From contig NZ_ATXC01000001.1 in NCBI RefSeq assembly GCF_000421485.1, forward strand, positions 1,233,087-1,297,086: a DNA stretch of 64,000 nt, in the 5' to 3' direction. Position 1 is the first letter of the stretch. Each line of letters starts with the position of its first letter. Of this stretch, positions 44,648 to 49,675 are shown piece after piece. The position numbers were made by a program, and so were the translations under genes. The notes under the pieces were generated by a model, which was given only the letters and a program-made list of their open reading frames with translations, was not told the origin of the DNA and searched no databases. This DNA is from Desulfurobacterium sp. TC5-1 (GTDB taxonomy: Bacteria; Aquificota; Aquificia; Desulfurobacteriales; Desulfurobacteriaceae).

Positions 44648-44673
44648 AAAGCCCCTCTTTAAAGAGGGGCTTT
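44648..44673 (-). terminator. Terminator of the metE-nrd operon
   Basis: Perfect 26-base palindrome with stem AAAGCCCCTCTTT; on the minus strand it runs into TTTTTTATTA. It follows the nrdD C-terminal gene by about 23 bases. Confidence 0.92.
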
Positions 44674-44696: not shown

Positions 44697-45230
44697 TTAA
44701 AGCATTGAGCTTAACTCTTCAAGGATGTGTTCAACATCCTCTTTTCTTACCTCTTTTCTTGTGGCAAAGTCTTCAACCCTTCCGTTCAACCAGAAAAGAT
44801 AGTTCGCCTCTTTGTAATCCTTTGAAATCTTGCCTCTCATTACTGGTCTAAAGTAACCAATAGGTCTTGACCAAAGGGTAACATCTTCAGAACCGCACCT
44901 TTCGCAGACCGTCTTTCTACCAACCATCTTATGACCACAGGTATTGCAGGTTGTTAAAAATGGTGTCTTTGTAAGGTACTGAATGGGAAAATTGTCAATT
45001 ATGTTGAATATGAGTTTTTCCTGCTCTTCCGGTGTCATCTCCTCTGCTGTGAAAAGGTGAAATATACTTCCGCCGGTAGCGTAACTCTGAAAGTGTGAAT
45101 TCACATCTATCTGCTTGAGCAAATCCCCTTCCTGAAACGGTGCCTGAAATCCCGACGTTAAGAACACCCTTTTATTTGCAGGATCACCATTTACACATAT
45201 CTTCGGTGTAATTTTCTGAACTTTCTCCAT
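44697..45230 (-). CDS. nrdD: Anaerobic ribonucleotide reductase, glycyl-radical C-terminal part
   Basis: 177 residues that match the end of class III NrdD: a finger loop region (YATGGSIFHLF), a zinc ribbon (Cys95, Cys98, Cys109, Cys112) and the glycyl-radical motif SRPIGYF with Gly125. On its own it lacks the catalytic barrel. It begins at ATG 45230, two codons after the TAA of the upstream part and in the same frame, with GGGAGG spaced six bases. The two proteins must combine to form one enzyme. A strong terminator follows. Confidence 0.92.
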   Translation of the reverse strand: MEKVQKITPKICVNGDPANKRVFLTSGFQAPFQEGDLLKQIDVNSHFQSYATGGSIFHLFTAEEMTPEEQEKLIFNIIDNFPIQYLTKTPFLTTCNTCGHKMVGRKTVCERCGSEDVTLWSRPIGYFRPVMRGKISKDYKEANYLFWLNGRVEDFATRKEVRKEDVEHILEELSSML

Positions 45231-45233
45231 CTC

Positions 45234-46778
45234 TTACCTCCCAACCGGTATATCAAATATGCGCTCTCCAAACTTCTCAAGCGCCCTATCTATAAATCTA
45301 TTAAGTTCCGGATCCACTGAAATCTCCTTTTCCCTCTCTCCTGAAAGTACCTGAGCAATGGCATTTGCAAAAGCGATATCCTTTTCAGCCATTCTGCACG
45401 CTGCGTTTTCAGACGGCGCATACTCAAGAGAGTAGAGAACCTGATCTTTCTCCATAAACTCGTGAAGCTTCTTGTAGAGATACTGAGCTATCCTGTGCGC
45501 ATACTCCTTTGCTTCATCGTTAAATAAACCGCCTTCAAAACCGGCATTAACCATGCCTTCATGTACACCAACAACGGAAAAGATGTTGAAGAGAGACTTA
45601 TCATCCTTTTGATAGAAAGAAAGATATGGATATAGATCGTTCCAGTGTTTTTTAAGCCATGCTCTCTTCCTTTGAAGAGCCTTTGCACCGATATCCATCA
45701 CGTAATCTATCATGGCCGTTAAAAAGTCAAAATCCTGCTTTGCAAGGAAGAGTAACCTGTTCATATTAATGGCATAAACACCTATACCGCCGACACCTGA
45801 ACCGGAATGGAATGGGTTGGAACCTGTTACCGCTTCAACCTGTGAAATATCAAACAGCATACGGCAACAGTTACTGTAAATCATACCCTCATCAAAGGGC
45901 TTTATGTAAGGATTTTTCTTCTTGTAGATGGAATCTTTCATAAATGGTTCTGTCTTGTAATTCTGAACGTAGAATCCTCCAAAGTACTCTGACTCCTTCA
46001 ACAGAAGCTTCCATGCAGGATTGTTCTTATCAAAATCGTCGGTTACATTAACCGTAATGAGCGGAAATGTAAAAGGATTTCCGTCTGCATCACCCCTCTT
46101 CATAGCTCTAATAAAAGCTTCATTTATCCTGTCAAAGTACTCTGAAGGAATCTCACCGTAGGTGTATGAGAGAAGTTCGCCTGCATATATAACAGGCTCA
46201 TCTTTTAGCCTCGTGTTTGGCTTCGCAAAATCAAGGGTTATGTTTGAAAACGGTGAGTTTCCACTTCTAAACGGAAGGTTAATGTTGTAGAGAAATTCCT
46301 GCCAGATGTTTTCAAGTTCATAATCGGTGTATTTTTTCTTCCCCGTTTTCTCCATGTGATAGAGGTAACCTGCAGCAACGGTTGATATATCGTTAAGAGA
46401 AGTTGCACCTGAAACTTCCTGTGCAACGAGACATATCAGATTCGCACACTGCATAAAGAGTGTTTCCAGTCTCTTTGGAGGCGCCGCCCTCCTTTCGTTT
46501 TTCGCATTACTCCTTAAGCCGTAAAACGCTATATCTTTGGAAGAAAGACCAATACAGTAAGCGGAAAGCCTGTATGTCTGATGATGGTAAGCCCATCCCT
46601 CTTCATGATGAATTCTGACAGGAAGCCCGTCATATATAACATCAAAGAGGTAATCTTTCATTACGTCACCAACAACAACATGTTCAAGAGTGGGAATTCC
46701 TCTAACAAAGTTCGCATTGTTTCTGGCAATATCATCATTACCGATGAAAAGGTCAATAAGCCTGAAATACTTGTTCAT
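45234..46778 (-). CDS. nrdD: Anaerobic ribonucleotide reductase, catalytic barrel part
   Basis: 514 residues covering the ten-strand barrel of class III ribonucleoside-triphosphate reductase, including QCANLICLVAQEVSGATS (about 109-126) and the active-site loop SNCCRMLF (about 300) with the thiyl-radical cysteine. There is no N-terminal ATP-cone. The frame stops with TAA at 45234-45236, and the rest of the enzyme restarts in frame two codons later, so the gene is split. ATG overlaps the nrdG stop by one base (TAATG). Confidence 0.93.
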   Translation of the reverse strand: MNKYFRLIDLFIGNDDIARNNANFVRGIPTLEHVVVGDVMKDYLFDVIYDGLPVRIHHEEGWAYHHQTYRLSAYCIGLSSKDIAFYGLRSNAKNERRAAPPKRLETLFMQCANLICLVAQEVSGATSLNDISTVAAGYLYHMEKTGKKKYTDYELENIWQEFLYNINLPFRSGNSPFSNITLDFAKPNTRLKDEPVIYAGELLSYTYGEIPSEYFDRINEAFIRAMKRGDADGNPFTFPLITVNVTDDFDKNNPAWKLLLKESEYFGGFYVQNYKTEPFMKDSIYKKKNPYIKPFDEGMIYSNCCRMLFDISQVEAVTGSNPFHSGSGVGGIGVYAINMNRLLFLAKQDFDFLTAMIDYVMDIGAKALQRKRAWLKKHWNDLYPYLSFYQKDDKSLFNIFSVVGVHEGMVNAGFEGGLFNDEAKEYAHRIAQYLYKKLHEFMEKDQVLYSLEYAPSENAACRMAEKDIAFANAIAQVLSGEREKEISVDPELNRFIDRALEKFGERIFDIPVGR

Positions 46779-47452
46779 TACGCCTCCACACTGTAAAAAG
46801 GATTAATTTGATAGGGAATCCCTGTTGACTCAGCAAAAGTTCTTATATCAGATAAGTCTTTCTCCGTTAATAAGGGATACCTAACAGTTCTTAATATAGT
46901 CAATTGAGAACCATTTTCAAGAGTGAATTTCTTAATTTTTTCAACAGATTTTTTTAAATTTTCAACATACCAGGATAATTTTTTATCATTTTCAAGTTTA
47001 TTAGAAAATAAAATCTGTTTAAATCTCGCTTTTTCTTCATCAGAATAAACATCTTTTATCGGAATTTTAATATCTAAAGCAAATCCATCCACCATTTTAT
47101 TCCTTATAAGCTCTTCTATTCTGTCAGGTAATGTTCCATTAGTATCTATCCTTACTGGAAAGTCTGCTTTCCTGATAAATTTTAAACCTTCCTCCAGTCT
47201 CTTTTCAAGAGTCGGCTCACCACCAGAGATAATTATCAGTTCAACGCCAAGGAGTTTTAGTTTATCAAGCTTCTCGGATAGTTTTTCATAAGAAATAAAT
47301 CCTGAACGGCTGTCAAACGAGAGTTTGTTATGGCACTGAAAGCATTCAAGGTTGCACAGGGGTATGTACGTATAGAGAACGGCTGATTGAACACCTGGCT
47401 GATCCTTAAACGTAACCGGCGTCTCAACATCAAGGAAAGGGGAGAGAGGCAT
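46778..47452 (-). CDS. nrdG: Anaerobic ribonucleotide reductase activase (radical SAM)
   Basis: 224 residues. The radical-SAM cluster motif C-x3-C-x2-C is at Cys33, Cys37 and Cys40, with the glycine-rich ISGGEPT for AdoMet. It uses a [4Fe-4S] cluster and AdoMet to place the radical on the NrdD glycine. The ATG at 47452 follows AGGAGG and overlaps the metE TGA. Longer than the compact E. coli NrdG (about 150), closer to the anaerobic activase type of Thermotoga-like anaerobes. Confidence 0.92.
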   Translation of the reverse strand: MPLSPFLDVETPVTFKDQPGVQSAVLYTYIPLCNLECFQCHNKLSFDSRSGFISYEKLSEKLDKLKLLGVELIIISGGEPTLEKRLEEGLKFIRKADFPVRIDTNGTLPDRIEELIRNKMVDGFALDIKIPIKDVYSDEEKARFKQILFSNKLENDKKLSWYVENLKKSVEKIKKFTLENGSQLTILRTVRYPLLTEKDLSDIRTFAESTGIPYQINPFYSVEA

Positions 47453-49614
47453 CACGCCTCCTCCCTCAATTCATGAGCAAGTGCAACGATGTTTCTTATT
47501 GCAGGAATACACTCTTCCCAGCGTCTTGTCTTAAGACCACAGTCAGGGTTAACCCAGAAGTTCTCCTTAGGAATAACCTTAAGCGCCCTCTCAACAATCG
47601 GCTTCATCTCTTCAACAGATGGAACGTATGGAGAGTGAATATCCCAGACACCAAGTCCTATCTGCCTGTCAAAGTTAACCTTCTCAAAGGCTTCTATGAT
47701 ATCACCTTTAGACCTTGAAGCTTCAATAGAAATAACATCAAAGTCCATAGCAAGAATATACTCAATTATTTCGCCAAACTCAGAGTAACACATGTGGGAA
47801 TGAATCTGAGTTTCCGGTTTTGACCTGGCGTGGCAAACTCTAAAAGACTTAACAGCCCAGTCAAAGTACTCATCCCAGTTTCTCTTCTTAATAGGTGCCT
47901 TTTCTCTGAAAGCAGCTTCGTCAATCTGAACAATCTTAATACCTGCTTCCTCGTAATCGGCAATCTCGTCTCTAATAGCCAGAGCTATCTGGTAAGCAAC
48001 CTCTGAAACCGGAATGTCTTCTCTACAGTAACTCCAGGCAATGATTGTAACAGGTCCTGTTAACATTCCTTTTACAGGCTTATCTGTGAGACTCTGGGCA
48101 AATGCTATCTCTTTAACGGTCATCGGCTCTGTTCTCTCAACATCACCAAAGATAATCGGCGGTCTGTAAGACCTTGTTCCGTAAGAAATAACCCATCCGT
48201 TACCTGTAGTTGCTATTCCTTCAAGCTTTTCCGCAAAGAATTCAACCATGTCACTCCTTTCAAACTCACCATGAACGAAAACATCTACACCAAGCTCTTC
48301 CTGAATCCTTATAGCCTTCGCAATTTCACCTTTTATAAACGTTTCATAATCCTGATCTGAAAGCTGACCCCTTCTGTTAAGAAGTCTCACCCTCCTTACC
48401 TCTTGAGTTTGAGGGAAGCTACCTATCGTAGTTGTCGGGAAGAGAGGAAGTTTTAATCTCTCTTGCTGAAGCTTAATCCTTTCTGCATAAGGAACAGGCT
48501 TATTGAAATCCGCCTCCGTAAGGTTTCTCACTCTTTCTCTTACACTCTCCCTTACACCAAAAGCTTTATCAATTCCTTCAATCCATGAACGTGCCTCATC
48601 TTCCTTACCTTCAACAACATCCGCTATAAGTTTAAGTTCGTTGAGCTTTTCTTCGGCAAAGGCAACCTTTGCAACAAGTTCAGGTGGCAACGTTGCGCCT
48701 TTAAGGTTTACAGGAAGGTGGAATAGTGGCGCAGCATTTGTAATAACAACATCGAACTTTTCTGACAGCTTCTTAATAATTTCCGCCTTTTTGAATATAT
48801 CAGCTCTCCAGACATTTCTTCCATCAACTACACCAGCATAAAGCGTCTTTCCTTTAGGATCTACCTTTTCAAGCTGTGAAAGGTTCTCTCCCCTATCGTG
48901 GACAAGGTCAACGCCAACACCTGCAACAGGAAGATCAAAAACAAACTGAAGATTATCCACACTGTCGTAGTAGGTGAAAACGTTTATCTTGGCATCAACA
49001 CCGTCAAAGGCTTTATAAGCTTCCTTTATGGCTTCAACTTCTCCGTCTGTAAGTTCCATAACAAAAGCGGGCTCGTCAAGGTGAACAGATTCAAAACCAT
49101 TAGACTTAAAGTATTCAGCATACTTGACCGCTAATTTCTTTAAAAGTTCACCAAACTTTCCTTCAGGAAGGTTTTTGGAAAGTTTAAGCAGTGTAAACGG
49201 ACCTATAAGATAAGCATTCTCTTTTATACCTTCGTGCTTGTTCCAGCCAAGTTTAAACTCTACCTCTTTACCTTCAAAATCGGGAACAAGGTAGTGATAG
49301 TTGGTGTTAAACCACTTGGTCATTTCAAGGGCATTCTTTCCACGGCAGAGGTTAAAGTACTCATCAAGGTTTTCTGCGCTGTAAATACCGAATATTAAAG
49401 CCGTATCAAAAAGGTTATCGTAAAAAGTCATCTCACCCTGTGGAAAGGCATCAACGTACTTTTTGTAAGTCTCCTCTCTCTTCTCATTAAGTTTCTTTAT
49501 CCCCTGTCTGAGTTCTTCTTCTGTGAGCTTACCGGCCCAGTACCCCTCTATAAGTGTTTTAAACTCTCTCTGCTTTCCTAAGCGGGGAAAGCCGTAACCG
49601 TAGGTTTTTGCCAT
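47452..49614 (-). CDS. metE: Cobalamin-independent methionine synthase
   Basis: 720 residues with both barrels of MetE: an N-terminal (TYGYGFPRLGKQREFK) half and a catalytic C-terminal half with zinc ligands in HSHMCYSEF (about 600) and NPDCGLKTRRW (about 690). Transfers a methyl group from methyltetrahydropteroyltriglutamate to homocysteine. Start is ATG at 49614 behind AGGAGG, not the upstream frame. It heads the nrdG-nrdD transcript, tying methionine supply to an AdoMet-using enzyme. Confidence 0.96.
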   Translation of the reverse strand: MAKTYGYGFPRLGKQREFKTLIEGYWAGKLTEEELRQGIKKLNEKREETYKKYVDAFPQGEMTFYDNLFDTALIFGIYSAENLDEYFNLCRGKNALEMTKWFNTNYHYLVPDFEGKEVEFKLGWNKHEGIKENAYLIGPFTLLKLSKNLPEGKFGELLKKLAVKYAEYFKSNGFESVHLDEPAFVMELTDGEVEAIKEAYKAFDGVDAKINVFTYYDSVDNLQFVFDLPVAGVGVDLVHDRGENLSQLEKVDPKGKTLYAGVVDGRNVWRADIFKKAEIIKKLSEKFDVVITNAAPLFHLPVNLKGATLPPELVAKVAFAEEKLNELKLIADVVEGKEDEARSWIEGIDKAFGVRESVRERVRNLTEADFNKPVPYAERIKLQQERLKLPLFPTTTIGSFPQTQEVRRVRLLNRRGQLSDQDYETFIKGEIAKAIRIQEELGVDVFVHGEFERSDMVEFFAEKLEGIATTGNGWVISYGTRSYRPPIIFGDVERTEPMTVKEIAFAQSLTDKPVKGMLTGPVTIIAWSYCREDIPVSEVAYQIALAIRDEIADYEEAGIKIVQIDEAAFREKAPIKKRNWDEYFDWAVKSFRVCHARSKPETQIHSHMCYSEFGEIIEYILAMDFDVISIEASRSKGDIIEAFEKVNFDRQIGLGVWDIHSPYVPSVEEMKPIVERALKVIPKENFWVNPDCGLKTRRWEECIPAIRNIVALAHELREEA

Positions 49615-49675
49615 ATTTCTCCTCCTGACATAAATAGATTTCATTAACGTTGGAGTTATTAATTCGGTAGATTGA

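Follow-up and report, generated by a model that had tools for sequence, protein, structure and literature searches.

The locus lies on the minus strand of the window, the 64,000-nucleotide stretch of Desulfurobacterium sp. TC5-1 DNA analysed here. Its first gene encodes a 225-residue nrdG-like radical SAM activase (46778..47455; Pfam Radical_SAM, 4.6e-15), whose best NCBIfam model is NrdG2 (TIGR02495, 2.5e-30, under that model's curated cut-off). The stop codon of nrdG shares one base with the ATG of nrdD chain 1, an ORF of 514 residues terminated by TAA (46778-45234). This TAA (45236-45234) is followed by a single GAG codon (45233-45231) and then, in the same frame, by the ATG at 45230 that opens nrdD chain 2, an ORF of 177 residues (45230-44697). 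The original prediction, that a single in-frame stop splits NrdD at this point, agrees with the ORFs in every position.

A Shine-Dalgarno sequence for chain 2, GGGAGG (45242-45237), lies within the 3' end of chain 1 at 6 nt from the ATG. It abuts the TAA and does not, as had been claimed, overlap it. GGAGG-like sites in relatives match it in position. An intrinsic terminator-like hairpin, with an 11-bp stem and then a T run (44648..44673), is found 3' of chain 2. Together with the overlap between nrdG and chain 1, it makes a single nrdG-chain 1-chain 2 transcription unit likely. Upstream, metE (47452-49644) shares 4 bases with the start of nrdG, an overlap which suggests that a single operon may comprise metE, nrdG and both nrdD genes.

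Catalytic residues and predicted structure

Both chains match the NRDD family PF13597 (562 positions), chain 1 over positions 2-427 (8.5e-62) and chain 2 over positions 437-547 (2.5e-21). As these parts are consecutive, the two chains together make up one NrdD. Chain 1 matched PF13597 only and not the class I/II barrel PF02867, which would mark a split class II NrdJab. Besides the ten-stranded barrel of NRDD type, further sequence features of class III, the anaerobic glycyl radical type of ribonucleotide reductase (RNR) that makes DNA building blocks, were found, namely the cysteines, the radical glycine, the Zn ribbon and an adjacent NrdG-like activase. The customary single polypeptide is missing here, a trait that does not define the class mechanistically.

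Chain 1 (45234..46778) carries most of the catalytic barrel, including the beta-A cysteine and the finger loop. Cys75 (46554..46556), invariant in split and fused relatives, takes the alignment position of the beta-A reductant cysteine that is conserved in RNRs. It was considered as the thiyl cysteine and rejected, since published work gives the reductant role to the beta-A cysteine and locates the thiyl site in the finger loop (PMC9669993). By homology the thiyl radical site is instead in the finger-loop double cysteine, Cys304-Cys305 (45864..45869), which is likewise invariant and belongs to the double-cysteine motif class described in the same work (PMC9669993). The finger loop reads NCCR and has no Met. 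A methionine at this loop of class III RNR has been tied to formate use (PMC9669993), and the reductant of the split NrdD is therefore likely to be of the thioredoxin type. NrdD2 and NrdD3 are both recognised by a third cysteine and the lack of a finger-loop Met, with an active-site Glu present in NrdD2 and absent from NrdD3. For this comparison, Glu452 aligns with the Glu of NIEQVPAE in the Thermotoga maritima enzyme and is a candidate for the active-site Glu.

The radical glycine and the Zn site had been placed on a separate small protein, and chain 2 (44697..45230) does carry both. An alignment of 16 sequences showed the Zn-ribbon cysteines C95, C98, C109 and C112 (44895..44948) and the radical glycine G125 (44856..44858) to be invariant. 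G125 lies in SRPIGYFRP, the aligned counterpart of RIVGYLVP in T. maritima NrdD.

An AlphaFold2 model was built from 32 sequences, including uninterrupted Aquificaceae NrdD, with the stop replaced by Gln so that the two chains were artificially joined. This joined model reached a pLDDT of 80 and a pTM of 0.84, and every top PDB match was an NrdD, from T. maritima (4u3e, Z 27.2 over 530 residues), S. thermophilus (9dau, Z 26.6) and T4 (1h79, Z 26.2). The junction (512-521) was modelled with very low confidence and is preceded by a helix (490-508). The end of chain 1 has about 25 extra residues, predicted to be helical, a stretch missing from fused relatives. The interface in the joined model is a prediction only, artificial joining being no proof of one. 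From the T. maritima alignment and the strand order of the model, we infer that the last barrel strand comes from chain 2, along with the Zn ribbon and the radical loop. Chain 1, originally described as the catalytic barrel, thus forms its main part but probably not the whole, as chain 2 appears to give the last strand.

The junction in Desulfurobacteriaceae and probable use of the enzyme

We examined 22 genomes of the Desulfurobacteriaceae, which are heat-loving bacteria of the deep sea. The records of these genomes carry the names Desulfurobacterium (here the own genus), Thermovibrio and Desulfurobacteriaceae. All have NRDD matches and both halves could be read in 21, one genome (G020) being excluded from the junction count because its contig ends before the second half. 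In all 21 independently assembled genomes nrdD consists of two genes. Comparison with relatives, called for in the original prediction, thus found every strain of the family split and one-gene NrdD only in other families of the phylum.

The form of the junction varies. Within the own genus (n=4) the halves are in frame and only 1-2 sense codons separate the stop from the chain 2 ATG. The stop corresponding to 45234..45236 is TAA in G000 and G011, TGA in G010 and a double TAATGA in G012. In 14 of the 21 genomes, all from other genera, chain 2 starts 8-20 nt upstream of the chain 1 stop, in a different frame. In G009 its ATG is out of frame and lies 4 nt past the first base of the stop, whilst the corresponding distance is 64 nt in G014 and 340 nt in G013. 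Simple readthrough is unable to join the frames in 17 of the 21.

The gap of G013 (L083, between 4395 and 4736) holds two small hydrophobic ORFs that separate the nrdD halves, and G014 has an apparent remnant. The break itself showed neither an intron nor an intein. Inteins were found inside chain 1 of several family members and a phage, at the catalytic Cys75 and finger-loop cysteines (L091:4439-8476, L085:4348-7146 and L133:661-3990). The insertion at Cys75 is present in G004, G021 and phage L133.

Both nrdD genes are under strong purifying selection, as judged by dN/dS between the two closest genomes, G000 and G011 (chain 1, 0.011; chain 2, 0.024). These low ratios and the recurrence in 21 genomes show that the two-gene arrangement is no chance feature. 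A ribonucleotide reductase is indispensable for free-living cells. One HMM search of the four draft genomes of the own genus (G000, G010, G011 and G012, three of them ~99% complete) found no PF02867 class I/II barrel, whereas other genera of the family have one or two. As no other reductase was detected in the own genus, the split NrdD is probably the one it uses, and chain 1 and chain 2 very probably work together. A different glycyl radical enzyme as the target of the activase was considered and rejected, since the Gly_radical domain of GrcA/YfiD (PF01228) was found in 0 of the 22 family genomes. Function in two chains is thus well supported by the genomic data.

A lone in-frame stop is the classic appearance of a sequencing error or of a recent pseudogene that leaves the reductase broken, but a split in 21 independently assembled genomes, with purifying selection on both halves of the only reductase found in the genus, leaves this explanation virtually no probability. 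The independent assemblies exclude sequencing error, so the TAA can be taken as real.

Split nrdD in phages and the probable separate translation of two chains

Split nrdD is also found on viral contigs. The IMG/VR contigs L132, L134 and L135 carry chain 1 and then chain 2, with identities of 72-76% in the best segments of chain 1 and 61-84% for chain 2. Full reading of L132 and L134 revealed a complete radical SAM nrdG homologue between the two chains, 38-45% identical to the NrdG of the window. In L133 a radical SAM ORF comes first, followed by a chain 1 gene that contains two inteins, and chain 2 lies a short gap further on. That these contigs are viral is supported by their genes for tail-fibre assembly, a UvsX-like protein, single-strand-binding protein and terminase. 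Searches of plasmids and cultured phages returned only distant ordinary NrdD. With a whole gene between the phage halves, readthrough cannot join them, and the phage contigs are thus the strongest case for two chains.

The original prediction offered two outcomes, a true two-chain reductase or readthrough of the stop. Readthrough or frameshifting that yields one NrdD protein would suit the own genus, in which the halves share a frame and only 1-2 sense codons precede the ATG. A readthrough gene should however keep a conserved single in-frame stop, which was not found among relatives, where both its identity and its context vary (TAA, TGA, TAATGA). The frames are not joinable in 17 of the 21 genomes, many of them having out-of-frame overlaps, and in g4 and the phages the halves are kept apart by gaps, by inserted ORFs or by an entire nrdG. 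Moreover, the conserved Shine-Dalgarno sequence and start codon would be superfluous. We therefore consider one protein made by readthrough very improbable as the general explanation, although low-level readthrough may occur in the own genus, the halves being in frame there.

By contrast, the two-chain option gains support from the varied junctions in 21 genomes and from the phage nrdG between halves. The changing stops, the double stop, the out-of-frame overlaps, the gaps, the inserted ORFs and the interposed nrdG all indicate two chains. It is highly probable that this is a class III RNR ordinary in all its catalytic parts and built of two separately translated chains.

For such an enzyme, ribosomes would begin chain 2 through translational coupling or reinitiation, using the terminal GGAGG of chain 1. 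The N-terminal part of chain 2 would then dock on chain 1, adding the last barrel strand and placing Gly125 beside the finger loop. NrdG would generate the radical on chain 2, at Gly125, from where it would move to the finger-loop cysteine of chain 1, and reduction of the NTP would begin. The active form would probably be a dimer of chain 1/chain 2 heterodimers.

Origin, precedents and other detached glycyl parts

Fused NrdD of this type occurs in Aquificaceae and in G121, at 38-43% identity to chain 1. In the chain 1 tree the split sequences from cells form one clade (99/96). Phage sequences fall outside this clade, and the fused NrdD sequences make up a separate group. The chain 2 tree agrees with weaker support and places one phage sequence among those from cells. 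The simplest reading of the trees is one split that predates the diversification of the Desulfurobacteriaceae.

The enzyme shares its fold, Zn ribbon, glycyl loop, double-cysteine finger loop and NrdG with T. maritima NrdD (PDB 4coi/4u3e) and with the fused NrdD of Aquificaceae and G121. These are single-chain enzymes, whereas here the linker after the barrel is broken and chain 2 has a new start. A cellular RNR on two polypeptides, both needed, is known from Pseudomonas aeruginosa as NrdJa/NrdJb, called in 2015 the unique example in a free-living organism (PMC4520616). That enzyme is however class II and B12-dependent, and its small chain carries out dithiol exchange and not radical chemistry. 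YfiD/GrcA and phage T4 Y06I are, like chain 2, small separate glycyl-radical proteins that complete a barrel protein (PMC8683613). YfiD gives a glycyl radical in trans to oxygen-cleaved pyruvate formate-lyase (PFL), and spare parts have been suggested for other glycyl radical enzymes (PMC8683613). It repairs a full-length PFL, whereas no full-length enzyme was found here. Phage nrdD and nrdA genes are similarly broken into pieces by introns, inteins and homing endonucleases (PMC3653736; Jug phages, PMC12363816). Many of those intron and intein splits can be rejoined by splicing, in contrast to the break described here, where no such element was seen. In the openly licensed literature we found no description of a split class III RNR in a cell, of Thermovibrio NrdD or of a Desulfurobacterium reductase. 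We thus found no published case of a two-chain class III RNR of a cellular organism, the split class II enzyme and YfiD being its precedents.

A glycyl part separate from its barrel was also found elsewhere in the phylum. In G121 and G124 a 703-residue NrdD ends before the radical glycine and is overlapped out of frame by an ORF of 54-61 residues with RVVGYYRP, with a radical SAM gene downstream (L141:3177-5457 and L142:2981-5246). In G135 the barrel chain (L107:2959-6432) has 1158 residues, two intein-like insertions and no radical glycine, whilst a 51-residue ORF with ARVVGYHRP (L143:3558-3710) adjoins a radical SAM gene on another contig. The G135 genome is 95% complete, and a search for class I/II reductases in it gave none. 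As the NrdD lineage and the break point both differ, detachment of the 51-61-residue glycyl peptide looks independent of the Desulfurobacteriaceae split. A genome-wide scan with two short peptide patterns gave matches solely in this phylum.

Several further NrdD C-termini were seen alone. Viral contigs, which may be incomplete, carry lone NrdD tails with a glycyl motif and no barrel match (L166:4001-4144, L167:3770-4108, L169:3117-3641 and L172:3692-4114). The L172 tail, of 141 residues, has the same break point as chain 2, and L169 has another domain after the glycyl motif. In the archaeal virus ANMV-1 (KP703175, L178:2234-2668) the gene named nrdD encodes 144 residues, only the C-terminal glycyl part, and no NrdD barrel occurs elsewhere in that record. 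This gene has been read as evidence of an oxygen-sensitive reductase (PMC4372165). An isolated 87-residue NrdD C-terminal fragment adjoins a partial radical SAM ORF in G079 (L144:3679-3939) and is apparently what remains of a lost nrdDG locus.

The main reason for keeping chain 2 separate might be that it serves as an exchangeable spare part, in the way that YfiD/GrcA serves PFL. Once O2 had cleaved the radical chain, a newly made small chain would take its place, a scheme that is compatible with the two-chain enzyme. In line with this, the oxygen-labile radical portion sits on a 20-kDa chain, has been detached again elsewhere in the phylum and is carried as lone NrdD tails by viruses, and spare parts have been proposed as possible for other glycyl radical enzymes (PMC8683613). 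The small chain is however obligatory and not spare, there being no full-length NrdD to repair, and the split may equally be neutral. We regard exchange as an unlikely main reason for the split. A broader idea is that the radical part of class III RNR has been detached repeatedly as an exchangeable subunit, once with 177 residues and once with 51-61, and that phage tails serve the reductase of the host. We hold this as a tentative possibility, with the balance somewhat against it; if true, the lone tails of phages would arm or repair the host enzyme.

A two-chain NrdD accounts for an in-frame stop that could easily be mistaken for an assembly error or a pseudogene. With such an enzyme three points can be tested directly: whether free chain 2 is enough for NrdG to recognise the glycine or the complex is required, by what route the radical loop comes into the barrel, and whether a radical chain damaged by oxygen is replaceable. 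Chain 2 is also a small protein substrate for studies of radical installation. Class III reductases are normally one chain, with the glycyl radical part regarded as an inseparable tail. The Desulfurobacteriaceae apparently depend on a two-chain NrdD, an indication that this part can exist as a subunit of its own.
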